Part shown: piece by piece, positions 42,446 to 54,534 of the stretch | Position numbering within the stretch: position 1 is the stretch's first letter | Layout of the letters: each line of letters begins with the position of its first letter | From: Rhizobacter sp. | Lineage (GTDB): Bacteria > Pseudomonadota > Gammaproteobacteria > Burkholderiales > Burkholderiaceae_C | Assembly (NCBI GenBank): GCA_023954175.1 | Contig: JAMLIM010000007.1 | Span: 17,302 to 81,301, forward strand | DNA: 64,000 nt | Direction: 5' to 3' | Notes under the pieces: generated by a model | The model's input: only the letters and a program-made list of their open reading frames with translations | The model's database searches: none | What the model was told of the DNA's origin: nothing | Made by a program: the position numbers and the translations under genes

Positions 42446-43225
42446 ATGGGATTCCTCGCCGGAAAGCGATTCCTGATCACGGGTGTACTGTCCAACCGTT
42501 CGATTGCCTACGGCATTGCGCGCGCATGCCACCGCGAAGGCGCTGAACTCGCGTTCAGCTATCAGGGCGAGCGTTTTCGTGAGCGCATCACCGACTTCGC
42601 GCGCGAGTTCGGCTCGGAGCTCGTTTTCGACTGCGATGTCTCGGACGATGCGCAGATCGCGAGTCTGTTTGAAGATCTCGGCGCCGCCTGGCCGGAGTTC
42701 GACGGCCTGGTGCATGCGATCGGTTTCGCGCCGAAGGAAGCGATCTCCGGCAGTTTCCTCGATGGCCTGTCGCGCGAGGCGTTCCGGATCGCGCACGACA
42801 TCTCGAGCTACAGCTTTCCTGCGCTCGCGAAGGCCGCTGCGCCACGCCTGCGAAACGGCGCGTCGTTGCTGACGCTGACCTACCTCGGCAGCCAGCGCAG
42901 CGTGCCGCACTACAACACGATGGGGCTTGCGAAAGCTTCGCTCGAGGCGAGCGTGCGCTACCTGGCCGTGAGCCTGGGCGATCGCGGGGTTCGGGTGAAC
43001 GGCATCTCCGCGGGCCCGATCAAGACGCTCGCAGCCACCGGCATCAAGGACTTCGGCCGCATCCTCGACATCGTCGAGCGCAACGCCCCGCTGCGTCGCA
43101 ACGTGACGATCGAGGACGTGGGCAACGTCGCCGCATTCCTGCTGTCCGATCTCGCCGCCGGCGTGACCGCGGAGATCACCTATGTCGACGGCGGATTCAG
43201 CCAGGTGATGGGCGGCGGCAACTGA
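42446..43225 (+). CDS. fabI: enoyl-[acyl-carrier-protein] reductase (NADH)
   Basis: Last step of each fatty-acid elongation cycle; the target of triclosan. The 259-residue SDR protein has the FabI nucleotide motif [20 protein letters not shown] and the active-site residues Y146, Y156 and K163 ([20 protein letters not shown]), at the same numbers as in the E. coli enzyme. ATG 42446 is preceded by GGAG 6 bases away. It is divergent from the rimP operon and ends 96 bases before its own terminator. Confidence 0.97.
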
Positions 43226-43321
43226 AGGTTCGCACGGCGCCGGGGCAGACGGGCGCTGCGCATCGCTGCGGCAGATTCCGCAGAGTCGAGCGCCCGGCTG
43301 AGCTTCGGCCCCATCCACGAG

Positions 43322-43351
43322 CCCGCCCTGCCCTGTGCCCGGCGGGTTTTT
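43322..43351 (+). terminator. intrinsic terminator after fabI
   Basis: CCCGCC (43322-43327) pairs with GGCGGG (43341-43346) followed by TTTTT. It closes the fabI transcript. Confidence 0.8.
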
Positions 43352-43378
43352 CACGCTCGCACACTCGCGACGGACAAG

Positions 43379-43414
43379 AAAAAGCCCGCCGCGAATCGTT
43401 GATCCGCGGCGGGC
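43379..43414 (-). terminator. minus-strand intrinsic terminator, native end of the displaced tRNA-Glu transcript
   Basis: Read on the minus strand, GCCCGCCGCG and CGCGGCGGGC form a perfect 10-bp stem with an 11-base loop (43394-43404) and are followed by TTTTTCTTG. It lies 8 bases beyond the distal att repeat, which is a copy of the tRNA-Glu 3' end. The natural reading is that it was the terminator of the tRNA-Ala/tRNA-Glu transcript before the island was inserted. Confidence 0.8.
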
Positions 43415-43421
43415 GGCAAGT

Positions 43422-43438
43422 TGGCGTCCCCTAGGGGA
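43422..43438. repeat. distal attachment site core of the integrated island
   Basis: TGGCGTCCCCTAGGGGA, identical to the last 17 bases of tRNA-Glu including CCA (54339-54355) and in the same orientation. The tRNA sequence is not continued here, so it is a duplicated 3' fragment as left by site-specific integration. Confidence 0.85.
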
Positions 43439-43488
43439 AACGACCCGACACCCCTGGAACCCGCATGAATGCTGGGCTCCAGCGATGT

Positions 43489-43541
43489 GCTACACAACCA
43501 CGTTCCCGGTGTTGTTACGCAGCCGGGTTGATAACTGTAGC
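43489..43541. promoter_or_regulatory. candidate integrase arm-type sites, distal end
   Basis: GCTACA at 43489-43494 and its inverse TGTAGC at 43536-43541, within the longer GTGCTACA and TGTAGCAC, flank 41 bases about 50-100 bases inside the island. The same hexamers form an inverted repeat near the tRNA end of the island at 54255-54271. Shared sites at both ends are what recombinase arm sites would look like. The surrounding 43439-43563 holds no gene. Confidence 0.45.
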
Positions 43542-43563
43542 ACAGGACCCGGCAAGTTCGCGC

Positions 43564-43794
43564 TCAGAGAGCCGCAAAGCATTCCTCCTTGCCATCGACC
43601 GGACGCATCGTTGGACCAAACTGATGGCTACCTGAGGGTGACAACGCACCGCTCACCTTCGGCGCGGCCTCCCCCTTGTCCGACTTGGGCTTTGTCCGCG
43701 GCTCTCGCGCTTCAACGCCATAGCGATACGGGACCACCAGACGGTTGGAACACGGTTGCACTTGCGCCATCACTGAACCGGACGAGACGAGCAT
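43564..43794 (-). CDS. doubtful small hypothetical protein in the island
   Basis: ATG 43794 to a stop at 43564, 76 residues: MLVSSGSVMAQVQPCSNRLV, then VPYRYGVEAREPRTKPKSDK and a C-terminus ending DGKEECFAAL. It is hydrophilic with no domain or signal that I recognise. Base use is less G/C-biased than in the chromosome. It may be a real island gene or a chance frame. Confidence 0.25.
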   Translation of the reverse strand: MLVSSGSVMAQVQPCSNRLVVPYRYGVEAREPRTKPKSDKGEAAPKVSGALSPSGSHQFGPTMRPVDGKEECFAAL

Positions 43795-43895
43795 CTGGGC
43801 GTCGCGTTGATACCCCTACCGGGACTTGCGGCGGCGATGCCTATATGCCGGCCAGGGACGGATTGGCCGTCGCCGATAGAAACCTGAAACACCAC

Positions 43896-44150
43896 ATGAA
43901 CGTACACGAACAGCTGACGCAACGCATCGAACATCTGAAGTCGCTCCAAGCCCTGCTGAACGGCGCCCGCGGAGCCTTCGCATCGCCAACGGTGACGCTG
44001 ACATCCGACCAACTCGCCACGCTCGACACCTTGGTCTTCAGTGAGCTCTATGCAAACGAGAGGTCCGTCCGCAAGCTCGTTGCCTTGACCGAAGTCCTTC
44101 GGCGCCTCGAGCCGGGCGAGAGCATCTCAAACGTTGACCTGCCGGACTGA
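43896..44150 (+). CDS. small hypothetical helical protein in the island
   Basis: ATG 43896 gives 84 residues: NVHEQLTQRIEHLKSLQALL, a middle VTLTSDQLATLDTLVFSELY and a last helix SVRKLVALTEVLRRLEPGES. It reads as a compact three-helix cytoplasmic protein with sensible amino-acid composition. No clear ribosome site is seen. It is the only non-mobile-looking plus-strand gene at the distal end of the island. From 44151 to about 44470 no gene is evident. Confidence 0.45.
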   Translation: MNVHEQLTQRIEHLKSLQALLNGARGAFASPTVTLTSDQLATLDTLVFSELYANERSVRKLVALTEVLRRLEPGESISNVDLPD

Positions 44151-44604
44151 CCGGTCTGCAAAGACTCGAGCCCTCGGAGGTCTTTCGGAAGAAGCGTTCA
44201 ACGGCACAAGAAAGTGGCGCGGCTGCGGGGACACCGCGCGCCACATGGATGTCAGAGATTTGACGCTCGGCTCTCACGGCAACACCAGACCAGCGAATGT
44301 TGGCGCAGACGCTCTGCTCGATTTAGCCGGTGCCGAGGCCAGGGTAGCCAACTTGATTGCGCTCATGCGAGGCGCAGTTTGGGCAGGCACGACGCTACAG
44401 TGTTTCCCGTGGCAACCCCCACGGTAAAGGAATGGGGGCTTCCCCCACGGCAACATGACATGGCAGGTGTCGGCTGTTGACACGCGCCGGCCGACTTTGG
44501 GATGGTCGGCTGAGCGCGCGGTCTGCCCAGCCTTCGTTGACCTCCTTCGATATTGATCGCGGGGACGGGCGTAGCCCGTAGCGGATTCCCCGCGCCGGCG
44601 CAGA

Positions 44605-45345
44605 TCAGCGGGGCCCTGCCGGCCTGGTTTGCTACTGCGCGCCTTGATAAGCTGCTGCCTTTCGGCCGTGCTGCGGCTGGCGGATCGACTCGTTGCCTGT
44701 CCCGACGATGCAGTGAAGAACCAGCAGCGCCGTGGTCACCTTTCGCCGCCGAACACGCCGGAATCACTCGGCGAAGTCCAGATTCGTCGCGATCATCACG
44801 CTGGTGTGCCTTCGTACGCGGCTGAGCAGGCGGGAACAGTAACGCACCTCATCCTCGGCCTGCTACTGAACGGGCAGGTGTTCAACCATCGAGGATGACC
44901 AAACTATGCGCGCTCAACGCGTCGCGTCCGGCCTTGCCTGCGCCTTTCTCCGTCTTGCATTGACCGTCGACCGTCGAGAACTGCACCTGCCGCCATGCCG
45001 GGTGATGACACGCCGACGGCCGGCCGCCAGGCGTTTTGCCAGCGCCTGCCCACCCATCAGCAATGACGTGCGCGTCGCCGGTGAAGCCGTTGCCAGTGTG
45101 CCCACCAGCTTGCGATCCACTGCTAAGACCCTTTGTTTTATTTTTCCGCCATGGCGCAATCGAATCCGCTGCGCAGCTGATCGTATCGCGTGGCCCGTGC
45201 CTTTGCCGCAGCAGATGCCGACCAACCAACGAGGACTTCGATGCCCGCACCTCCTCCCCACCACGTCTCTGCTCACCAGACCGGCTCCAGTGCCGGGCTA
45301 CGTGCAGGCGTAGCTGTTTGAGCTCGACCGTCACGCGCCGACAGC
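44605..45345 (-). pseudogene. istB: istB remnant (IS21 helper ATPase)
   Basis: Recognisable against the intact istB: the start region VELKQLRLH remains but the ATG is changed, the ATPase region survives in pieces (for example DLVILDE and WSACRR-like shifts), and the stop region TGATCTGCGCCGG is kept. Multiple frame shifts break the reading frame. Not functional. Confidence 0.75.
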
Positions 45346-46786
45346 GGCCGGCCTCCTCGGTGGCGCTTCGCCCGGCAGTCGGCTCGCAGTCCAGCCGTAG
45401 CGCGCTGCAGCCGGGCGCCACGGTAGCCGACATGCGCGATCGCCGCGCCTGCGGCGTCGGCGCCGCGTTCACAATCGCCCGAGCACGCCGACCACATGTC
45501 TCCACACTGACCTTTTGCCGGCAAACCTCCAGCTTCACCCCACCGCTACAGTACCGCGCGGGCCGTCAGCATCGATGGCCAGCACTCTGCGCCATCACAC
45601 GGTCGCCACCAGCTGCGCAGCAATGGCGCATGCTGCAGTTCGGGCATGCGGCACACGCCGCCGCGCAACGCGCCGGGTGCTTCCTCTGCAGCAGCGGATA
45701 ATGCTGCCAGTCATACCAATCGCGCCAGCGAGTCAATAATGTGACGGGCCGATCTGTCAGTTTAAATATCATTGACGACGCCGCCCGGATATGTTTCGCA
45801 AAAATGACTAGTTTTTGCCCAAATTATCATATTTTGAATGATGCGGTGCTTTTTTCGCGCCATCGACACTATAGATGCGCCGACGGCGCCGGCTTTTTCG
45901 CCGACATGGTGCCGCCGAACGGTGCCGTCGGCGGGCATCGAGGCGCGGCCACCGTGTCGATTAAACCGGTTTACCGCTGAACTACTGTGCTGATGGCGCA
46001 CCTCGTCCCCACAACGCTGGCAGCGCCCCAGCCAGGCGTTGAGTTTTCGGTGACTGCCGAACCCATACGCATCGATCCAGATGCGTCACCGTCCTGACAT
46101 TCTCCGACTCGATCTCTTTCCAGCCCGAGGCGACGCCGCAGTCGGGGTCGACCGTATGCGCGCACATGGCAGGCGCGTCTGCCGACGATGTGGCCCTGCC
46201 TTCTGATCTTATCGATCGCGGTCTTTCATGTTGTCAGATGCGGCCGCGAGGGACGCTTACCCAGCGCCGCAAAGTTGCGCGTATGCAGACGGTTATCCGC
46301 GACCCGCGGCTTCGGTAGGCCACGAAGCCAGAACGCCTGGGCTCGCGCAGCCATGCGCATATCTGTGCCCGGTAGGGATGCTGCCCACCAACTCCTCTTC
46401 GCTCCAGTCAACTGGAACGCTGCCGAGTTCGAATGCCAGCGGTAGAAGGCGTTGCCGATGCAGTTGACTCCGTTCGCTACGCCTGACGAGCCGGTGACGT
46501 GCGTAGCCGCCGCCGTACCCGCCGCCTTCGATCTCAACGTGCGCGCTCTGGCTGTGCGACGCTCGTGCTTGGGTCGCCGCGCGTCGGCCTTCAACGCCTG
46601 CTTGAGCGCCTCTGGAAGTCGGTCAGCTTGCTCGGCTGCACGCCGCGCCGGTACTTCGGCGGACCATCGACCTCGCCGCAGCCACTTCGCAACCGTGTTG
46701 CGCGACAAACCCCGTCATGCGCGAGATCTCGCTCCGGACTTCGTCTTCCGGCAGTACAAGCGCCGGATCCCGCCAATCATGTCCAT
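45336..46786 (-). pseudogene. istA: istA remnant (IS21 transposase)
   Basis: The ATG and [14 protein letters not shown]-like start are at 46786, then [27 protein letters not shown] and later VDPDCGVASGWKE match the intact transposase but in different frames, with indels between them. The DDE domain is broken, so it is a dead copy. The stretch 45750-45860 is strongly A/T-rich compared with the intact copy. Confidence 0.75.
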
Positions 46787-46900
46787 GGTGCCATCCCCAC
46801 GCCAGGCACAAAAAGGGCAGCAGGGTAGGTTGAACACCTGGCTCCAGATTTCAGTCGGCGCGGCTCTCAAAGTGGCTCGGATTTTCGGCTGGCGCCAACA

Positions 46901-47876
46901 GTCTTGGCGAACCGCTCGGCGAAACGCTGGTCATCCAGTAGTTCCAGCAGTGCCGAGAAAGACTCCGGGTAGCCGTTGTGCGGGGTCGCCGACAGGAACA
47001 GCTTGTGCTCGAAGTGTGGGGCGAGCAGACGAATCGCCTGGGTGCGCTGGGAGTCGGTTGCGTACTTGCCGCTGCCCGCCGGCGCCACGTTGTGGGCCTC
47101 GTCGACGAGCAACATATCGAAGCGGCGAGGGTAGTTGGACTGACCTGCGGCAGGAAGGACTTCGCGCATCAGGCGCAAGGGCCGTTCACGCTTCAGGAAG
47201 TCGATGGACGTGATGAGACGCGGATAGTGATTCCACGGGTTCACGTGCAGACCCCGGCTGCGACGAAGCTGCTTCATGGCTTCGCTGTCGACGATGCGGA
47301 AGTCGAGGCCGAACTTATCGCGCATCTGCTCGCGCCACTGAATCTGCAAACCGGAAGGACAGACGATGAGGACCGAGCGGATGCGGTGGCGAAGCATCAT
47401 CTCCTGGATAACCAGACCGCTTTCGATGGTCTTGCCCAGGCCGACGTCGTCTGCGATGAGCAGGTTGACGCGCGGCATCTGTATCGCTCGGGCCAGTGGG
47501 TCGAGCTGGTAGTCCTCGATTTCGATGCCGCTGCGGAAGGGCGCCTGCAGGGTGCTGGTGTCGGTCTGCGAAACCGCCCCCAGCGGACCGCGTTCAGAAA
47601 CGCATCCAGCTTCTGGTGGTCAAGTCGAAGCCATTGAACTCCTGGGCATCGATGCACGCTCAAGGACGGCAGTACCGGGTTCGAGCTCCCAGACCACCCG
47701 CAACTCCTCGCCGAGCGCGTCGTCCTCAACCGAGGACATTGATACCAGGTGCTGAGGTCGAACCCCTTCGGGAGCGGTACCAGCCTCAACCGTCGTGACA
47801 ACGAAACGGCGGTTGCGTGCCTGGACGAGTTGCCCGTGCCGGCAGCGCTCGTGTGGCGGAGATGACCTCGAGCACT
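46901..47876 (-). pseudogene. drmD: truncated, frameshifted SNF2-type helicase, DrmD-like (DISARM)
   Basis: Minus-strand sequence starting near GTG 47876 (after GGGAGG) encodes GQLVQARNRRFVVTTVEAG and SSVEDDALGEELRVVWELEP, then LDAFLNAVRWG, then in another frame TLQAPFRSGIEIEDYQLDPL, the helicase motif I region LLIADDVGLGKTIESGLV, RRSRGLHVNPWNHYPRLITS, motif II LLVDEAHNVAP and motif III FLSATPHNGYPESF. At least two frame shifts occur, one at a run of five G near 47585. The gene stops at the left end of the decayed IS21 (46900), so the C-terminal two thirds is gone. The pattern is that remembered for DrmD of DISARM phage-defence systems; a different SNF2 family cannot be excluded. Confidence 0.65.
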
Positions 47877-48682
47877 GTTCCCTCCCGTGGGCGCGACGGA
47901 GCGGGCCGAAGAGCCGCGAATTCTTAGTGCAGCCAGTCGGCACGGGCCGTCGGTGCGCCGCTTCGCGCCTTGGTGTTGACGAGCGGGGGAGCTCAGGGCC
48001 CCAGAAGACTGACGACGTAGGCATGACCGGGTTGCCCAGGGCCTTGGGGCGAAGGTGGTCGTTCAGGTCATCACCCCGTAGGGTCGAAATGTCGACGCGC
48101 ACGAACGGCAGAGCGCGGAGAGAGTTGGCTGCAGGAGCTGGGCAACGTGCCCACGCGACTTCGAACGCGTCCGAAACTGGACTTCCTCAGCGAGGCCCCG
48201 GACGCTTGGATTGCGGCGGCAGTTTGGCGGGGTTACTAAGCAAGGGACCCGGGAGCAAGTTCAACCTGTGCAAGCCGTTAGCAAACCTGAAGCTGTGGGG
48301 TTGGCAGCCTTAACTTGGCTTCTTGGCAGCCCACACTTGTCTCGACAATTGCTTTCCAACCTACCCGGGATGGAATCCGTATCCGAGCAAATATAAAGCC
48401 GATTGCTATACAAAGGCGTCAATGACCAACTACCCCGTAGCGACGGGTCAAGGGGGAGATATTGATGCATAATAATCCAATATCTTTGGGGCTTTTCTCG
48501 GCCACGAATAATGAGCTTGGTAGCCATACTCTTACCAAGGAAAGTCGGGTATAAAGTCGACTTATCCTAGGCTCATCATGACTTAGCTGTGTTGCATCAT
48601 TATGTGCTGCCGAGCCACGTGCACCGACCGCCACCCAGACAAAGTTGCCGCGGGCGCGAAAACGCCCAATGGACTCCCTCAC
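47877..48682. other. gene-poor decayed segment between the helicase remnant and IS21
   Basis: No intact gene is supported. On the minus strand 47960-48120 reads LPFVRVDISTLRGDDLND and HLRPKALGNPVMP, which looks like real protein but ends in no frame that I can extend; it may be the tail of a lost upstream gene of the same locus. From 48300 to 48600 the sequence is A/T-rich and shows nothing recognisable. Confidence 0.4.
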
Positions 48683-48798
48683 TGTTGGCGCCAGCCGAAA
48701 ATCGAGCCACTTTGAGAGCCGCGCCGACTGAAATCTGAGCCAGGTGTTCAACCTACCCTGCTGCCTTTTTGTGCAGCAGGGGATGAGGAGTGATCACC

Positions 48799-50334
48799 AT
48801 GGACATGATTGGCAGGATCCGGCGCTTGTACTGCCGGGGCAAGAAGTCGGAGCGCGAGATCTCGCGCATGACGGGGTTGTCGCGCAACACGGTTGCGAAG
48901 TGGCTGCACGGCGAGGTCGATGGTCCGCCGAAGTACCGGCGCGGCGTGCAGCCGAGCAAGCTGACCGACTTCCAAGAGGCGCTCAAGCAGGCGTTGAAGG
49001 CCGACGCGCGGCGACCCAAGCACGAGCGTCGCACAGCCAAGGCGCTGTACGTTGAGATCAAGGCGGCGGGGTACGGCGGCGGCTACACGCGCGTCACCGA
49101 CTTCGTCCGGGCATGGCGCCAGGGCGAAGGTCAAGCTGCATCGGCCAACGCCTTCATACCGCTGGCATTCGAACTCGGCGAGGCGTTCCAGTTTGACTGG
49201 AGCGAAGAGGGGTTGGTGGTGGGCGGCATCTACTACCGGGCACAGGTCTCGCACATGAAGCTGTGCGCGAGCCGGGCGTTCTGGCTCGTGGCCTACCCGA
49301 GCCAGGGTCACGAGATGCTGTTCGATGCGCATACGCGCGGCTTTGCGGCGCTGGGTGGCATCCCGCGTCGCGGCATCTACGACAACATGAAGACCGCGGT
49401 CGATAAGGTCAAGAAGGGCAAGGGCCGCATCGTCAACGAACGCTTCGCCACCATGTGCGCGCACTACCTGGTCGACCCCGACTTCTGCAACGTCGCCTCG
49501 GGCTGGGAGAAGGGTCGAGTCGAGAAGAATGTCCAGGACAGTCGCCGACGCATCTGGATCGATGCGGCCAAGGTCAAGTTCGGCAGCTTCACCGAACTCA
49601 ACGCCTGGCTGGGGGCACGCTGCCGGGCGTTGTGGGACGAGGTGCGCCATCCCGAGCACGAGCAGTTCAGCGTGGCTGAGATGCTCGAGCACGAACGGCC
49701 GCACCTGATGCCCATGACGACGCCGTTCGACGGCTATGTCGAGAAGCCGGCGCGCGTCTCGAGCACCTGCCTGGTGTCGGTGGCGCGCAACCGCTACTCG
49801 GTGCCGTGCGAGCTGTTCGGGCAGCTGGTCAGCACGCGGCTGTATCCGGGCAGCGTCGTCGTGGTGGCCGACGACAGAATCGTGGCCCGTCACGACCGAC
49901 TGAGCAACGCCGGCGAGACCCGGTATGACTGGCAGCATTACATCCCGCTGCTGCAGAGGAAGCCCGGCGCGTTGCGCAACGGCGCGCCGTTCGCCGACAT
50001 GCCCGAGGCGCTGCAGCGGCTGCGCCGGGGGTTGCTGCGCAACCCGGGTGGCGACCGTGTGATGGCGCAGGTGCTGGCCATCGTGCTGACGGCCGGACTG
50101 GACGCGGTGCTGGTAGCGGTGGAACTGGCGCTGGAGACCGGGCCACCAGGCAAGGTCAGTGTGGAACATGTGGTCAACGTGCTCGGGCGATTGAACGCGG
50201 CGCCGACGCCGCAGAGCGCGGCGACCTCGCTGCAGGTGTCGGTACCGCCATTGGCCGATACGGCGCGCTACGACAGTTTGCGAGCCGACAGCGTGGACAG
50301 CGCCACCGAGGAGGCCGGCCATGTCGACGCGTGA
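48799..50334 (+). CDS. istA: IS21-family transposase IstA
   Basis: DDE transposase of 511 residues. N-terminal helix-turn-helix ([20 protein letters not shown]), then the catalytic core with the first aspartate in [21 protein letters not shown], and [16 protein letters not shown] holding the glutamate. ATG 48799 has AGGAG 8 bases upstream. It overlaps istB by 14 bases. Intact, so the element may still be mobile. Confidence 0.93.
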
Positions 50335-51145
50335 CTTGACGGTCGAGCTCAAACAGCTACGCCTGCACGGGATGGCCGGCGCCTGGGCCGATCTGGTTGA
50401 GCAAGGCAGTGGTGGGGGAGGAGGTGCGGGCATCGAGTCCTCGCGTTGGTTGGTCGAGCATCTGCTGCAGGCCGAAGGCACGGACCGCGCGATGCGCTCG
50501 GTCAGCCACCAGATGCACGCAGCGAAGTTCCCGGTGCACCGCGACATGGCGGGCTTCGACTTCGAGGTCTCGCCAGTGGATCGCAAGCTGGTGGGCACAC
50601 TGGCCACAGCGGCCTTCACCGACGACGCGCACAACGTCGTGCTGGTGGGTGGACCGGGCACGGGCAAGACGCATCTGGCGACGGCCATCGGCGTGTCGGG
50701 CATCACCCGGCATGGCAAGCGGGTGCGGTTCTACTCGACGGTCGACCTGGTCAATGCGCTGGAGCAGGAGAAGGCGCAAGGCAAGGCCGGACGCATTGCG
50801 TTGAGCTTGCTGCGCATGGACCTGGTCATCCTCGATGAGTTGGGCTACCTGCCGTTCAGCCAGGCCGGTGGGGCGTTGCTGTTCCACCTGCTCAGCCGCT
50901 TGTACGAACACACCAGCGTGATGATCACGACGAATCTGGACTTCGCCGAGTGGTCCAGCGTGTTCGGCGACGCGAAGATGACCACGGCGCTGCTGGACCG
51001 GCTCACGCATCACTGCCACATCGTCGAGACGGGCAACGAGTCGATCCGCTTCAGCCGCAGCACGGCCGAGGCAAAGAAGCGCATCAAGGCGCGCGAGCAG
51101 GCTCGCAAGGGCAGCAAACCGGAGCCACCGACAGAGCCCTTCTGA
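50321..51145 (+). CDS. istB: IS21 helper ATPase IstB
   Basis: AAA+ ATPase of 274 residues that assists target choice by IstA. Walker [16 protein letters not shown], Walker [14 protein letters not shown], sensor region [19 protein letters not shown], and the typical end [18 protein letters not shown]. It starts inside istA (14-base overlap), as is usual for the family. Confidence 0.95.
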
Positions 51146-51377
51146 TCTGCGCCGGCGCGGGGGAATCCGCTACGGGCTACGCCCTGCGCGTCTTCCCCCG
51201 CCCGAACATCAACTCATCGAGGAGGTCAACGAACAAGGCAAAGACCTACACTTATCCACAGCCGACCATCCCAAAGTCGGCTTCCACCCCTGGCTCATTG
51301 TTCAGTCGGCGCGGTGGCTCAGTAGTGACTTGGCGCCGACAACGCACGTCCACTGAACGCGTCACCTTCGAGCACCG

Positions 51378-52286
51378 CTACAGACACCATGTAGTCGATT
51401 CAGGCAGGGCGCGACGGTTGTCGCGCCCTGCTCCGTCGTCGACCGCCTCGGCAACAAGCGGCGCCAGCCATTGACCGTCTCTCGCCAATCTGCCGAGTTC
51501 CGCGAAGAGCGCCCCGACCTCGCGATGGGACACGTTGCCGCAGGGGCGCACGTCGCGTTCAAGCGCCACCGGCGCGCCGTTCAGCGGCGGATACGAGCCG
51601 GTCGCACTGCGCACGAGCTCGGTCGCAAATCGCTCCAGGCAGCGCGCCAGGATGGCGTGGCTCTCGGGAACCGCCACGATGGCGATGTCGAATGCGCCGT
51701 CAGCGATGAGGTCGGCGGCGCGTTCGCGGTCGCCATCGAGTCCACCCGGCTGAGCCAACCATCGGTTGCGTGACCACAGCGCGCGTCGCAGCACCCTGTC
51801 CGCGTCCTCCTCGCACTCGAAGCCCAGTTTTCCCAGGCGCTCGAACGCGTACCGGAACGCTCGCTGGGCGCTGTACATGCGTCCGTCGGCATACAGGTGG
51901 GTGATGAGCCGGCTGCGCACGCTGTTGCCGACGCTGCTGCCCACATAGAGCATGCGCTGGTCAGGACTGGTGTCGGTGATGACGTACATGCCGGGCACCA
52001 GCAGGTCCCTCTGTTGCCCACCGAATGGCAGCTTCGCGATGTGCGGGTAGAAGCCGGTCGAAAGTTGCAACGCCTGCGGCAGCCCGACGACGCGCTGACC
52101 AATCCATGGTCGAAGTCGGTCGATGGCCTGGGCCAGGTTGGAAAGGGGCAACCAGGCGTCGACGGTGTCGCCGACCTCTTCGGGCTCGAGCGGAACGAGT
52201 CGCCCGAGGAGACGCATGTCCAAGGGGACACGGTCGGCGCGCAGGCTGCGGCTGTCACCCGGCCGCCAGAACACGGCGCCGCTCAT
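51378..52286 (-). CDS. GIY-YIG-like protein coupled to the island integrase
   Basis: A 302-residue protein not assigned to a named family. Residues 98-130 fit the GIY-YIG nuclease core: PGMYVITD, then LYVGSS at 113-118, R124/R126 and H130. Much later LERFATELVRS (218-228) with SYPPLNG supplies the place of the catalytic glutamate (E219 or E223) and the following asparagine, so the domain carries an insertion of about 85 residues. Residues 1-95 are an unrecognised N-terminal domain. Its ATG overlaps the integrase stop (ATGA), so it is translated with the integrase. The intact IS21 begins 36 bases past its stop. A nuclease role in recombination or defence is possible but inferred. Confidence 0.6.
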   Translation of the reverse strand: MSGAVFWRPGDSRSLRADRVPLDMRLLGRLVPLEPEEVGDTVDAWLPLSNLAQAIDRLRPWIGQRVVGLPQALQLSTGFYPHIAKLPFGGQQRDLLVPGMYVITDTSPDQRMLYVGSSVGNSVRSRLITHLYADGRMYSAQRAFRYAFERLGKLGFECEEDADRVLRRALWSRNRWLAQPGGLDGDRERAADLIADGAFDIAIVAVPESHAILARCLERFATELVRSATGSYPPLNGAPVALERDVRPCGNVSHREVGALFAELGRLARDGQWLAPLVAEAVDDGAGRDNRRALPESTTWCL

Positions 52287-54124
52287 GCACGCCCCCGCAT
52301 CATCTCCGGCGTCCACTTCGGCACGTCGGCCCGGGCCGGGAACGACAACTTGCTCAGCTCCGCCAGCACTGTCTTCGGCGGAAAGCGTCCATATTCCTGC
52401 GATGCGCGCTTCGGGGTGTGGCCCTGGAGGTAGTCCTGGACATCCGGTGGGACTTGCGCATCTCGCATCCAGGTCTTGAGCGTGTGCCGAAACGAAATCC
52501 AGTCCACGCCGCGCGCCTTGACGCGCACGCGCTTCAGGTAGCGGTTGAACCACTTCGAGTAGTTGCCGGCGATGTTGCCCTTGTCGTCGGGCCTCATGTC
52601 CGGGAACAGCGCGAACGAACCGCTCCGGCGCACGCACTCCACGTAGTCCATGAAGCCCAGCTCGAGGACCCGTGGGTGCACGGGAATGATGCGTCTGGAG
52701 GCACCTGTCTTGAGCGAAGACTCGAAGAGCTCCTCGCGCGCTTCTGTGGACAACTGGTGCAGGGCGGCCTGTTCGTTGTTGTCGCGAGCCGTGACCCACA
52801 GACAGACGATGCCGTCGCGTACGACGACCTCGTGCACGCTGAGCTGCGCCAGTTCGGCCATGCGCGCGCCGGTGATATGAGCGAGGGTCGGCAGCCAGTA
52901 CGCGGCCTCACCGGCGCCACCAATCGGGCGCTCACCCTGCGCATGCACGGGCCCACGGAAGAAGGTCCTGAGCTGTTCCTGCGACAGGTCCTGCTTCTCC
53001 GTGATATCACCGGGCTTGACCTTGTCTTTGCGCATTTGCTCCAGCGGACTGACGATGCGACGCTCGCACAACAGGTCATCGACCGCCAGTGCGAAGATGG
53101 CGCGCAAGAGTCCCATCAACTTGTTGACGGTTTGCGGCCGAATCGGCTTGCCACGTACCATGCGCTTGCCCTCGTTGGACTGGAAGCCAAGCATGTCGCT
53201 GCGTGTCAGCGTGCTCACGCGCGACTTGCCGGTGAACGACTTGAGTCGGGCCCAGACGGCTTTCGCTTCGATGACCGTCTTTGCGGCGGGTCGGTTCTTC
53301 GTCAGCCAGTGTTCGAAGGCGCGGTCCAGGTCGTCGAGGTCGTCCTCGCTGCGCAGGGGCGCAGGAGCCTTGGCGGACTTCTCCGACGGGGTGGTTTCGC
53401 CGTCGAGCCGGTCGGCGATGCCGCGCAGCGCGCGCAACTGGGCGAGCATCATTTCCTTGAGCAGGCTTTTCCAGGTGTCGGAACCCTCGTCGCATTTGAG
53501 CTTCTCGGCCTCCAGGAAGCCGCGCGCGTCCTCGGCGACAGCGTCGTAGTCACCCCTTGCGTTGGCCGCACGCAGTTGGGTCCGCTGGGTGTCGAGGTCG
53601 CCGCTGTACTCTTCGAACTCGGATGCACTGAGCTTCTCGCCGCGGTCCAGGTCGTCCGAGTACAGCAGCAAGGCCTCGAAGCGACGGGCAACGACGGGCA
53701 CGTCGTCGGCGAGGACCTCGGCCGCATCGACGACCCGCTGCGGTTTAGCGTGAGGGAGTTCGCACTTGCGGTCCAGCTCCTCGACCAGCCGGTCGAAACG
53801 GTAGGCCTCTCTTCGGGCCAGTCGCTCGGCGCAAAGCCGGTCGGCGGTCTTCAGGCTGACCCGGTACACCGGCCCGGTGACGCAGCCGCGACGGCACAGT
53901 CTCACCGGATAGCGGCGCATGAAGTAGTAGCGGCCCTCCCGCAGGGTGAGGTAAGGCACCTTGCGAGCCTCCTTGCGAGCCCCCTTTCGAGCGGTCTTGG
54001 ACGCCGCCTGGCGGCGCTCGCTGCGGTTGGGACGACGGGCGTCGTTGGACCCGGTGTCGGGCGCCTGGCCCTCGTGCGGGAGCTCTGGGCTGGAGTGCTC
54101 CGCGGACTCGACCTTCATGGACAT
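52283..54124 (-). CDS. site-specific tyrosine recombinase (island integrase)
   Basis: A 613-residue integrase. After a basic start it has an N-terminal segment PYLTLREGRYYFMRRYPVRL like the DUF6538 domain of many integrases, a middle core-binding SAM-like region (about 300-400), and the catalytic domain: first Arg in HITGARMAELAQLSV, the second box WISFRHTLKTWM, then QGHTPKRASQEYG with the nucleophile tyrosine. The usual HxxR is SFRH here, as in some families. ATG 54124 is chosen (GAGG 10 bases upstream); ATG 54118 is equally possible. It lies 214 bases from tRNA-Glu and on the same strand. Confidence 0.93.
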   Translation of the reverse strand: MSMKVESAEHSSPELPHEGQAPDTGSNDARRPNRSERRQAASKTARKGARKEARKVPYLTLREGRYYFMRRYPVRLCRRGCVTGPVYRVSLKTADRLCAERLARREAYRFDRLVEELDRKCELPHAKPQRVVDAAEVLADDVPVVARRFEALLLYSDDLDRGEKLSASEFEEYSGDLDTQRTQLRAANARGDYDAVAEDARGFLEAEKLKCDEGSDTWKSLLKEMMLAQLRALRGIADRLDGETTPSEKSAKAPAPLRSEDDLDDLDRAFEHWLTKNRPAAKTVIEAKAVWARLKSFTGKSRVSTLTRSDMLGFQSNEGKRMVRGKPIRPQTVNKLMGLLRAIFALAVDDLLCERRIVSPLEQMRKDKVKPGDITEKQDLSQEQLRTFFRGPVHAQGERPIGGAGEAAYWLPTLAHITGARMAELAQLSVHEVVVRDGIVCLWVTARDNNEQAALHQLSTEAREELFESSLKTGASRRIIPVHPRVLELGFMDYVECVRRSGSFALFPDMRPDDKGNIAGNYSKWFNRYLKRVRVKARGVDWISFRHTLKTWMRDAQVPPDVQDYLQGHTPKRASQEYGRFPPKTVLAELSKLSFPARADVPKWTPEMMRGRA

Positions 54125-54254
54125 GGCGTGCTGGCCTCGTTTGATTGAACAAGCGAGCAGACCAGCCGTGCCACATGAAGGGGTCTTGTCGACCCCGCAA
54201 AAGCAAAACGGCGCACGAGGCGCCGGTTGCTGTATCACACTGCCCGGCCAATCT

Positions 54255-54271
54255 GCTACACGTCATGTAGC
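54255..54271. promoter_or_regulatory. candidate integrase arm-type site, tRNA-proximal end
   Basis: GCTACA (54255-54260) and TGTAGC (54266-54271) form an inverted repeat around CGTCA, 68 bases from the att core and between it and the integrase start. The hexamers recur at 43489-43541 at the other end of the island. Confidence 0.45.
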
Positions 54272-54338
54272 CCGGGTGTTTATTCCTTGTCCCACAGGGC
54301 TGCGATTCCTATAAGAATCAACAGCTTGCTGTGTTACA

Positions 54339-54355
54339 TGGCGTCCCCTAGGGGA
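54339..54355. repeat. tRNA-proximal attachment site core
   Basis: TGGCGTCCCCTAGGGGA, the last 17 bases of tRNA-Glu with CCA, identical to 43422-43438. The core covers part of the T stem, the 3' acceptor strand and CCA, a common integration target. Confidence 0.85.
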
Positions 54356-54414
54356 TTCGAACCCCTGTAGCCACCGTGAAAGGGTGGTGTCCTAGGCCTC
54401 TAGACGAAGGGGAC
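54339..54414 (-). tRNA. tRNA-Glu (anticodon TTC)
   Basis: A 76-base cloverleaf with encoded CCA. Acceptor GTCCCCT pairs with AGGGGAC, the anticodon stem CCACC/GGTGG closes the loop CTTTCAC (TTC), and the T loop is in GGTTCGAATCC. Its 3' end is regenerated by the island's att sequence, so it stays intact. It is the last gene of the gltX transcript, and its own synthetase gltX lies just upstream. Confidence 0.97.

Positions 54415-54458: not shown

Positions 54459-54534
<76 letters not shown>

Follow-up and report, generated by a model that had tools for sequence, protein, structure and literature searches.

A small, reduced genomic island at tRNA-Glu in Rhizobacter sp., with a drmD remnant and an integrase of unusual active site

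Introduction

What lies between fabI and tRNA-Glu in this Rhizobacter sp. genome, and how did it come to be there? The segment in question belongs to the window, i.e., the whole 64-kb stretch of DNA analysed here, and is bounded by two copies of a 17-bp repeat. It is an ordinary tRNA-integrated genomic island at tRNA-Glu, small (~11 kb) and reduced, of a known kind. Very probably, it was inserted by a tyrosine integrase via 17-bp recombination with the tRNA-Glu 3' end, carries as cargo a remnant of drmD, a gene of the defence island system associated with restriction-modification (DISARM), and is likely to be impaired in excision. The features on which this account turns are the following:

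43422..43438, plus strand: attL, displaced 17-bp copy of the tRNA-Glu 3' end (exact repeat)
54339..54355, plus strand: attR, 17-bp repeat within the intact tRNA-Glu 3' end (exact repeat, ARAGORN)
54339..54414, minus strand: tRNA-Glu(TTC), intact, the integration target (ARAGORN)
52283..54124, minus strand: tyrosine integrase, 613 amino acids, DUF6538 and Phage_integrase, with the HxxR histidine replaced by Ile543 (Pfam, PHROG, alignment)
51378..52286, minus strand: ORF302, an orphan gene of 302 amino acids that overlaps the integrase stop codon (GIY-YIG-like segment, sub-threshold; ORF, open reading frame)

Attachment repeats and target tRNA

Both copies of the repeat are exact and in direct orientation, where a sequence-only reading had placed them (43422-43438 and 54339-54355), and attR is the final 17 nucleotides of the tRNA-Glu gene, CCA included (ARAGORN). 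In the window, attL and attR are the only two matches to the 17-mer at up to two mismatches (shuffles: 0); in the whole assembly (3,918,481 bases, 148 contigs, 94.69% complete), exactly two matches are found at up to one mismatch, and none to a reversed control pattern. The doubt raised along with the earlier reading, that the 17-mer might be common across the chromosome, thus falls away. The tyrosine recombinase gene said to sit beside the tRNA is found there, directly downstream of tRNA-Glu and on the same strand. The spacing of 10,917 bases is likewise correct on the sequence as given; the stronger statement, that the repeats define the island exactly, holds for the bounds and the target, which are well supported, and not for the length, which is approximate because 44490-46900 is probably poorly sequenced, unpolished DNA (see below).

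In the proposed course of events, the integrase would have recombined a 17-bp attP with the identical tRNA-Glu 3' end: on the right, the tRNA would be made whole again by the incoming copy, and on the left the boundary would be marked by the displaced 3' fragment. The repeats, the intact tRNA, the integrase gene and an empty site in a relative are observed; the recombination reaction is what we infer from them. The same arrangement characterizes Islander-type islands in tRNA genes (PMC4383910): an intact tRNA at one end and a displaced 3' fragment at the other, a tyrosine integrase gene inside, and, in a relative, the site without the insertion. Within the tRNA, the T-stem/acceptor part contains the 17-bp block, a position that by our own reading fits the Islander J subsite. 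Unlike these islands, the one described here is small, holds insertion sequence (IS) copies of the IS21 family and a gene remnant, and encodes an integrase whose HxxR box contains an uncommon Ile.

The empty site

If the segment was inserted, what does the chromosome look like without it? The surroundings in the window are:

42446..43225, plus strand: fabI, left chromosomal flank (NCBIfam enoyl-ACP reductase FabI, 481 bits), which adjoins the empty site in the relative too
43379..43414, minus strand: hairpin whose T run is on the minus strand and which, where the site is empty, likely terminates the tRNA transcript (fold; equivalent in the relative)
54459..54534, minus strand: tRNA-Ala(GGC), chromosomal flank (ARAGORN)

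The tRNA/gltX stretch was searched in 60 genomes (the window's own included), of which 59 matched; the loci of 19 relatives were read, with ~1.5 kb of flank each. One of them, locus L004 in the same-genus genome G004, shows fabI and the hairpin, then a tRNA-Glu in one piece with its single 17-mer, then tRNA-Ala and gltX, and has nothing of 43439-54338. The empty site that had been predicted from the window thus exists, in one relative. Between L004 and the window, FabI is 94.6% and GltX 86.8% identical; an equivalent hairpin stands directly before the 17-mer in both, while the distance from the end of fabI to the 17-mer is 73 bases in L004 as against 196 bases to attL in the window. The fabI/tRNA-Glu junction was found in only 1 of the 19 loci (tblastn), the other 18 giving no tblastn match to FabI within their flanks, and what precedes the tRNA in L005 and L006 is different. 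The segment that holds the integrase and ORF302 is absent from the four other genomes of the genus that were searched; matches of 26-36 bases in three of them look like chance. A further copy of the tRNA 3' end was sought in seven tRNA-Glu relatives and not found, a result of little weight, as the stretches are short.

The hairpin is stable (43376-43440 folds with -32.2 kcal/mol, z -3.0). Its T run, read by eye, is on the minus strand and therefore fits the tRNA transcript; for fabI, a separate terminator seems, also by eye, to lie near 43320-43350. The hairpin is likely to be the former terminator of tRNA-Glu, from which the island now cuts it off. In L004, short T runs adjoin the hairpin on either side; in 43379-43421 of the window, the minus-strand T run alone is left.

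The integrase: target preference

Is a tRNA gene the usual target of such an enzyme? In the window protein, DUF6538 scores above its Pfam cut-off and Phage_integrase just below (23.9 vs. 27.1), and the protein matches PHROG integrase families. With DUF6538-bearing tyrosine integrases (PF20172 with PF00589) it shares DUF6538, the catalytic R, K, R, H and Y, and a gene that directly follows a co-oriented tRNA; it differs from them in its sub-cut-off Phage_integrase score and in an identity of 23-37% in the best segments. No mention of DUF6538 was found in the literature searched.

An integrase relative occurs in 31 of 300 genomes of the order, the window genome included, and a genome_contigs scan found 97, of which 80 were kept; DUF6538 is present in all 16 of these 80 that were scanned with Pfam. 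A co-oriented tRNA lies directly upstream of the integrase in 60 of the 80 loci (Ser 19, Glu 14, Arg 12, Ala 5, Asp 4, Leu 3, SeC 2, Met 1), and the background density is 77 tRNAs in 891,757 bases of these loci. The isotype follows the integrase tree, with 21 changes vs. a shuffled mean of 39.7 and minimum of 35 (200 shuffles, 68 labelled rows). Some points weigh against carrying this pattern over to the window: 20 of the 80 relatives have no tRNA directly upstream, the window integrase has no close kin among the relatives found, and its branch is long and poorly placed in a quick tree. Given this distance, its own site preference is read from its position beside tRNA-Glu.

Among the relatives, four in other Proteobacteria (L078, L079, L081 and L092) are also beside tRNA-Glu(TTC), and two (L132 and L138) adjoin a selenocysteine tRNA gene, as called by ARAGORN.

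The integrase: activity

Can the island still leave? Its mobility is doubtful. Besides R, HxxR and Y, the active site of tyrosine recombinases includes K and H/W. By alignment, the window protein keeps R421, K472, R546, H569 and Y578; the family consensus is R...HXXR...Y (PMC8371274), and the histidine of this motif is Ile543 here. Across 93 aligned rows, three of which are second copies of the same proteins, this position is H in 81, Y in 4, R in 3 and a gap in 4; Ile is found in the window protein alone. Because of Ile543, mobility may be impaired, and excision is probably slow or no longer possible.

The opposite case, in which a tolerated Ile543 leaves the integrase fully active and the island able to excise, perhaps helped by ORF302 as accessory factor, is a tentative option, the less likely of the two. 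The integrase and ORF302 frames are both open, with strong codon-position bias, and the Tyr and Arg rows (4 and 3 of 93) indicate that a change at the HxxR position is tolerated in some relatives, which counts against impairment; yet Ile is in no other aligned row, and ORF302 has neither a significant homologue nor a GIY-YIG motif in the 80 relative loci to recommend it as a helper.

Cargo

What did the island bring along? What it carries has the look of a remnant and comprises the leading third of drmD, an intact inverted IS21 element and the orphan ORF302. The gene drmD marks class 1 DISARM.

46909..47841, minus strand: drmD 5' fragment, DrmD profile positions 3-309 of 1021, one internal TGA (profile match)
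48683..51342, plus strand: intact IS21-family element with imperfect inverted ends TGTTGGCGCC/GGCGCCGACA (NCBIfam transpos_IS21, IS21_help_AAA)
48790-50334, plus strand: istA, in the intact IS21
50321-51145, plus strand: istB, in the intact IS21

The drmD fragment clearly matches the N-terminal SNF2 region of DISARM DrmD (NCBIfam NF038317); unlike the complete protein, it is limited to those leading profile positions, scores below the cut-off (498 vs. 610 bits) and contains a stop. It occupies a single frame, with one TGA and no frameshift in 933 bases, and stops where a second, inverted and scrambled IS21 copy begins. An ORF list had suggested several frameshifted drmD pieces, which the single frame with one TGA rules out. 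PADLOC, in which the fragment cross-hits a model named DrmA, revealed no other DISARM gene (drmA, drmB, drmC or a methylase gene) among the seven ORFs scanned, and the genome-wide search was made for DrmD alone. Its three other hits in the genome (35-46 bits) are meaningless, since such weak hits occur in 14 of 14 control genomes. The island would once have carried at least drmD, probably within a DISARM cluster; the IS21 copy now terminates the fragment, and the rest has probably been lost by deletion. That drmD alone was found speaks against going further, and a former full cluster is a guess.

The intact element belongs to IS21 by its istA and istB, both above curated NCBIfam cut-offs, and its inverted ends; no clear target-site duplication is seen by eye. 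The two IS21 copies flank the drmD fragment in mutually inverted orientation. With IS21 on IncP plasmids (e.g., pAKD15, JN106166), the intact copy shares full istA/istB, at 86.7% nucleotide identity over 97% of the query; in contrast to these, it is chromosomal, sits inside an island and has a second inverted copy nearby. In L075 (G000:C127:4671-4718), a 48-bp sequence identical to the IS21 end stands by itself mid-contig with no element attached, a relic or a misassembly.

Might the element instead be what is left of an integrated prophage or conjugative element, and not a defence island? This is unlikely, even though the integrase matches PHROG integrase families and the cargo is so reduced that it leaves room for either origin: the nine island ORFs scanned with Pfam and NCBIfam, a set that leaves out those of the scrambled block, include no structural, replication, relaxase or transfer gene.

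The scrambled IS21 copy

How should the second IS21 copy be read? Two features lie in the left part of the island:

44490..46910, minus strand: second IS21 copy, inverted, scrambled (alignment to the intact IS21)
43896..44150, plus strand: ORF of 84 amino acids, codon-position GC gene-like (no family match above cut-off)

An alignment of the left copy with the intact one gives ~76% identity and 92 indel runs in ~2.4 kb, 67 of them deletions and 25 insertions. When changes are polarised with the IncP copy, it has private changes at 492 of 2085 sites, and the intact copy at 42 of 1635. On the istA strand, its substitutions are A>G 93, G>A 87, C>T 54 and T>C 47, with 12-43 for each transversion, i.e., 180 A/G exchanges and 101 C/T exchanges; per site, the rates are 0.245 for A>G vs. 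0.147 for T>C, and 0.116 for G>A vs. 0.085 for C>T. Over the initial 400 columns of the alignment, changes are sparser than in most of what follows (32 substitutions, 8 indel runs). In nanopore reads, A/G exchanges are reported to be ~3-5 times as frequent as transversions and C/T exchanges just slightly above them (PMC8486125). The strand-asymmetric A/G excess of the left copy resembles this error, and the block is probably unpolished long-read sequence, not true decay.

That the copy is a genuine pseudogene of great age, or one singled out for hypermutation within the cell, is unlikely, and has two points to its credit: substitutions are near-even over istA codon positions (115/110/90), as without selection, a pattern that random read errors would match too; and the load of mismatches and indels (492 of 2085 sites plus 92 indel runs) exceeds that of ordinary nanopore reads, which tells against sequencing error. 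True decay is hard to square with the adjoining non-functional drmD fragment, which has presumably been inactive as long or longer and has 0 frameshifts in 933 bases, with an intact sister IS21 that has just 42 private changes in 1635 sites, and with a substitution spectrum that is strand-asymmetric and nanopore-like (PMC8486125). If the block is indeed unpolished, it mimics a decayed transposon, and claims on island size and pseudogenes that draw on it are untrustworthy before a check of the reads. The block may reach further to the left, and 43439-44490 should also be treated with care.

ORF302

What might ORF302 be? The whole ORF302 protein gives no Pfam GIY-YIG hit, and the segment cut out scores 15.7 bits vs. 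a cut-off of 22.6. No homologue is found in 300 genomes of the order except its own, nor in plasmids or phages, nor in viral contigs and genome contigs scanned with six exact 8-residue patterns; PDB sequences return three chance-level hits only (best E 0.95). In the 80 integrase-relative loci, tblastn reaches a best E of 1.6, and a GIY-YIG motif scan finds none; in L067, a weak ORF302 hit (E 0.83) lies beside the relative integrase. The AlphaFold model from the single sequence has a mean predicted local distance difference test score (pLDDT) of 34.3. That ORF302 is a new accessory factor for an Ile543 integrase that recombines without the HxxR histidine, uniting a variant active site with control of a tRNA island, is very improbable.

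Conclusion

That the region is native chromosome, with 17-mers owed to chance or to tRNA-Glu genes in general, is hardly credible: the exact 17-mer is present at tRNA-Glu in many related loci, but the assembly holds just two copies at up to one mismatch and the shuffles none, a same-genus relative has the empty site, and an integrase gene stands beside the tRNA. The island reading gives the Rhizobacter sp. genome a confirmed integration site and a named boundary; the relatives of its integrase suggest a group that keeps to tRNA 3' ends while the isotype changes along the tree.

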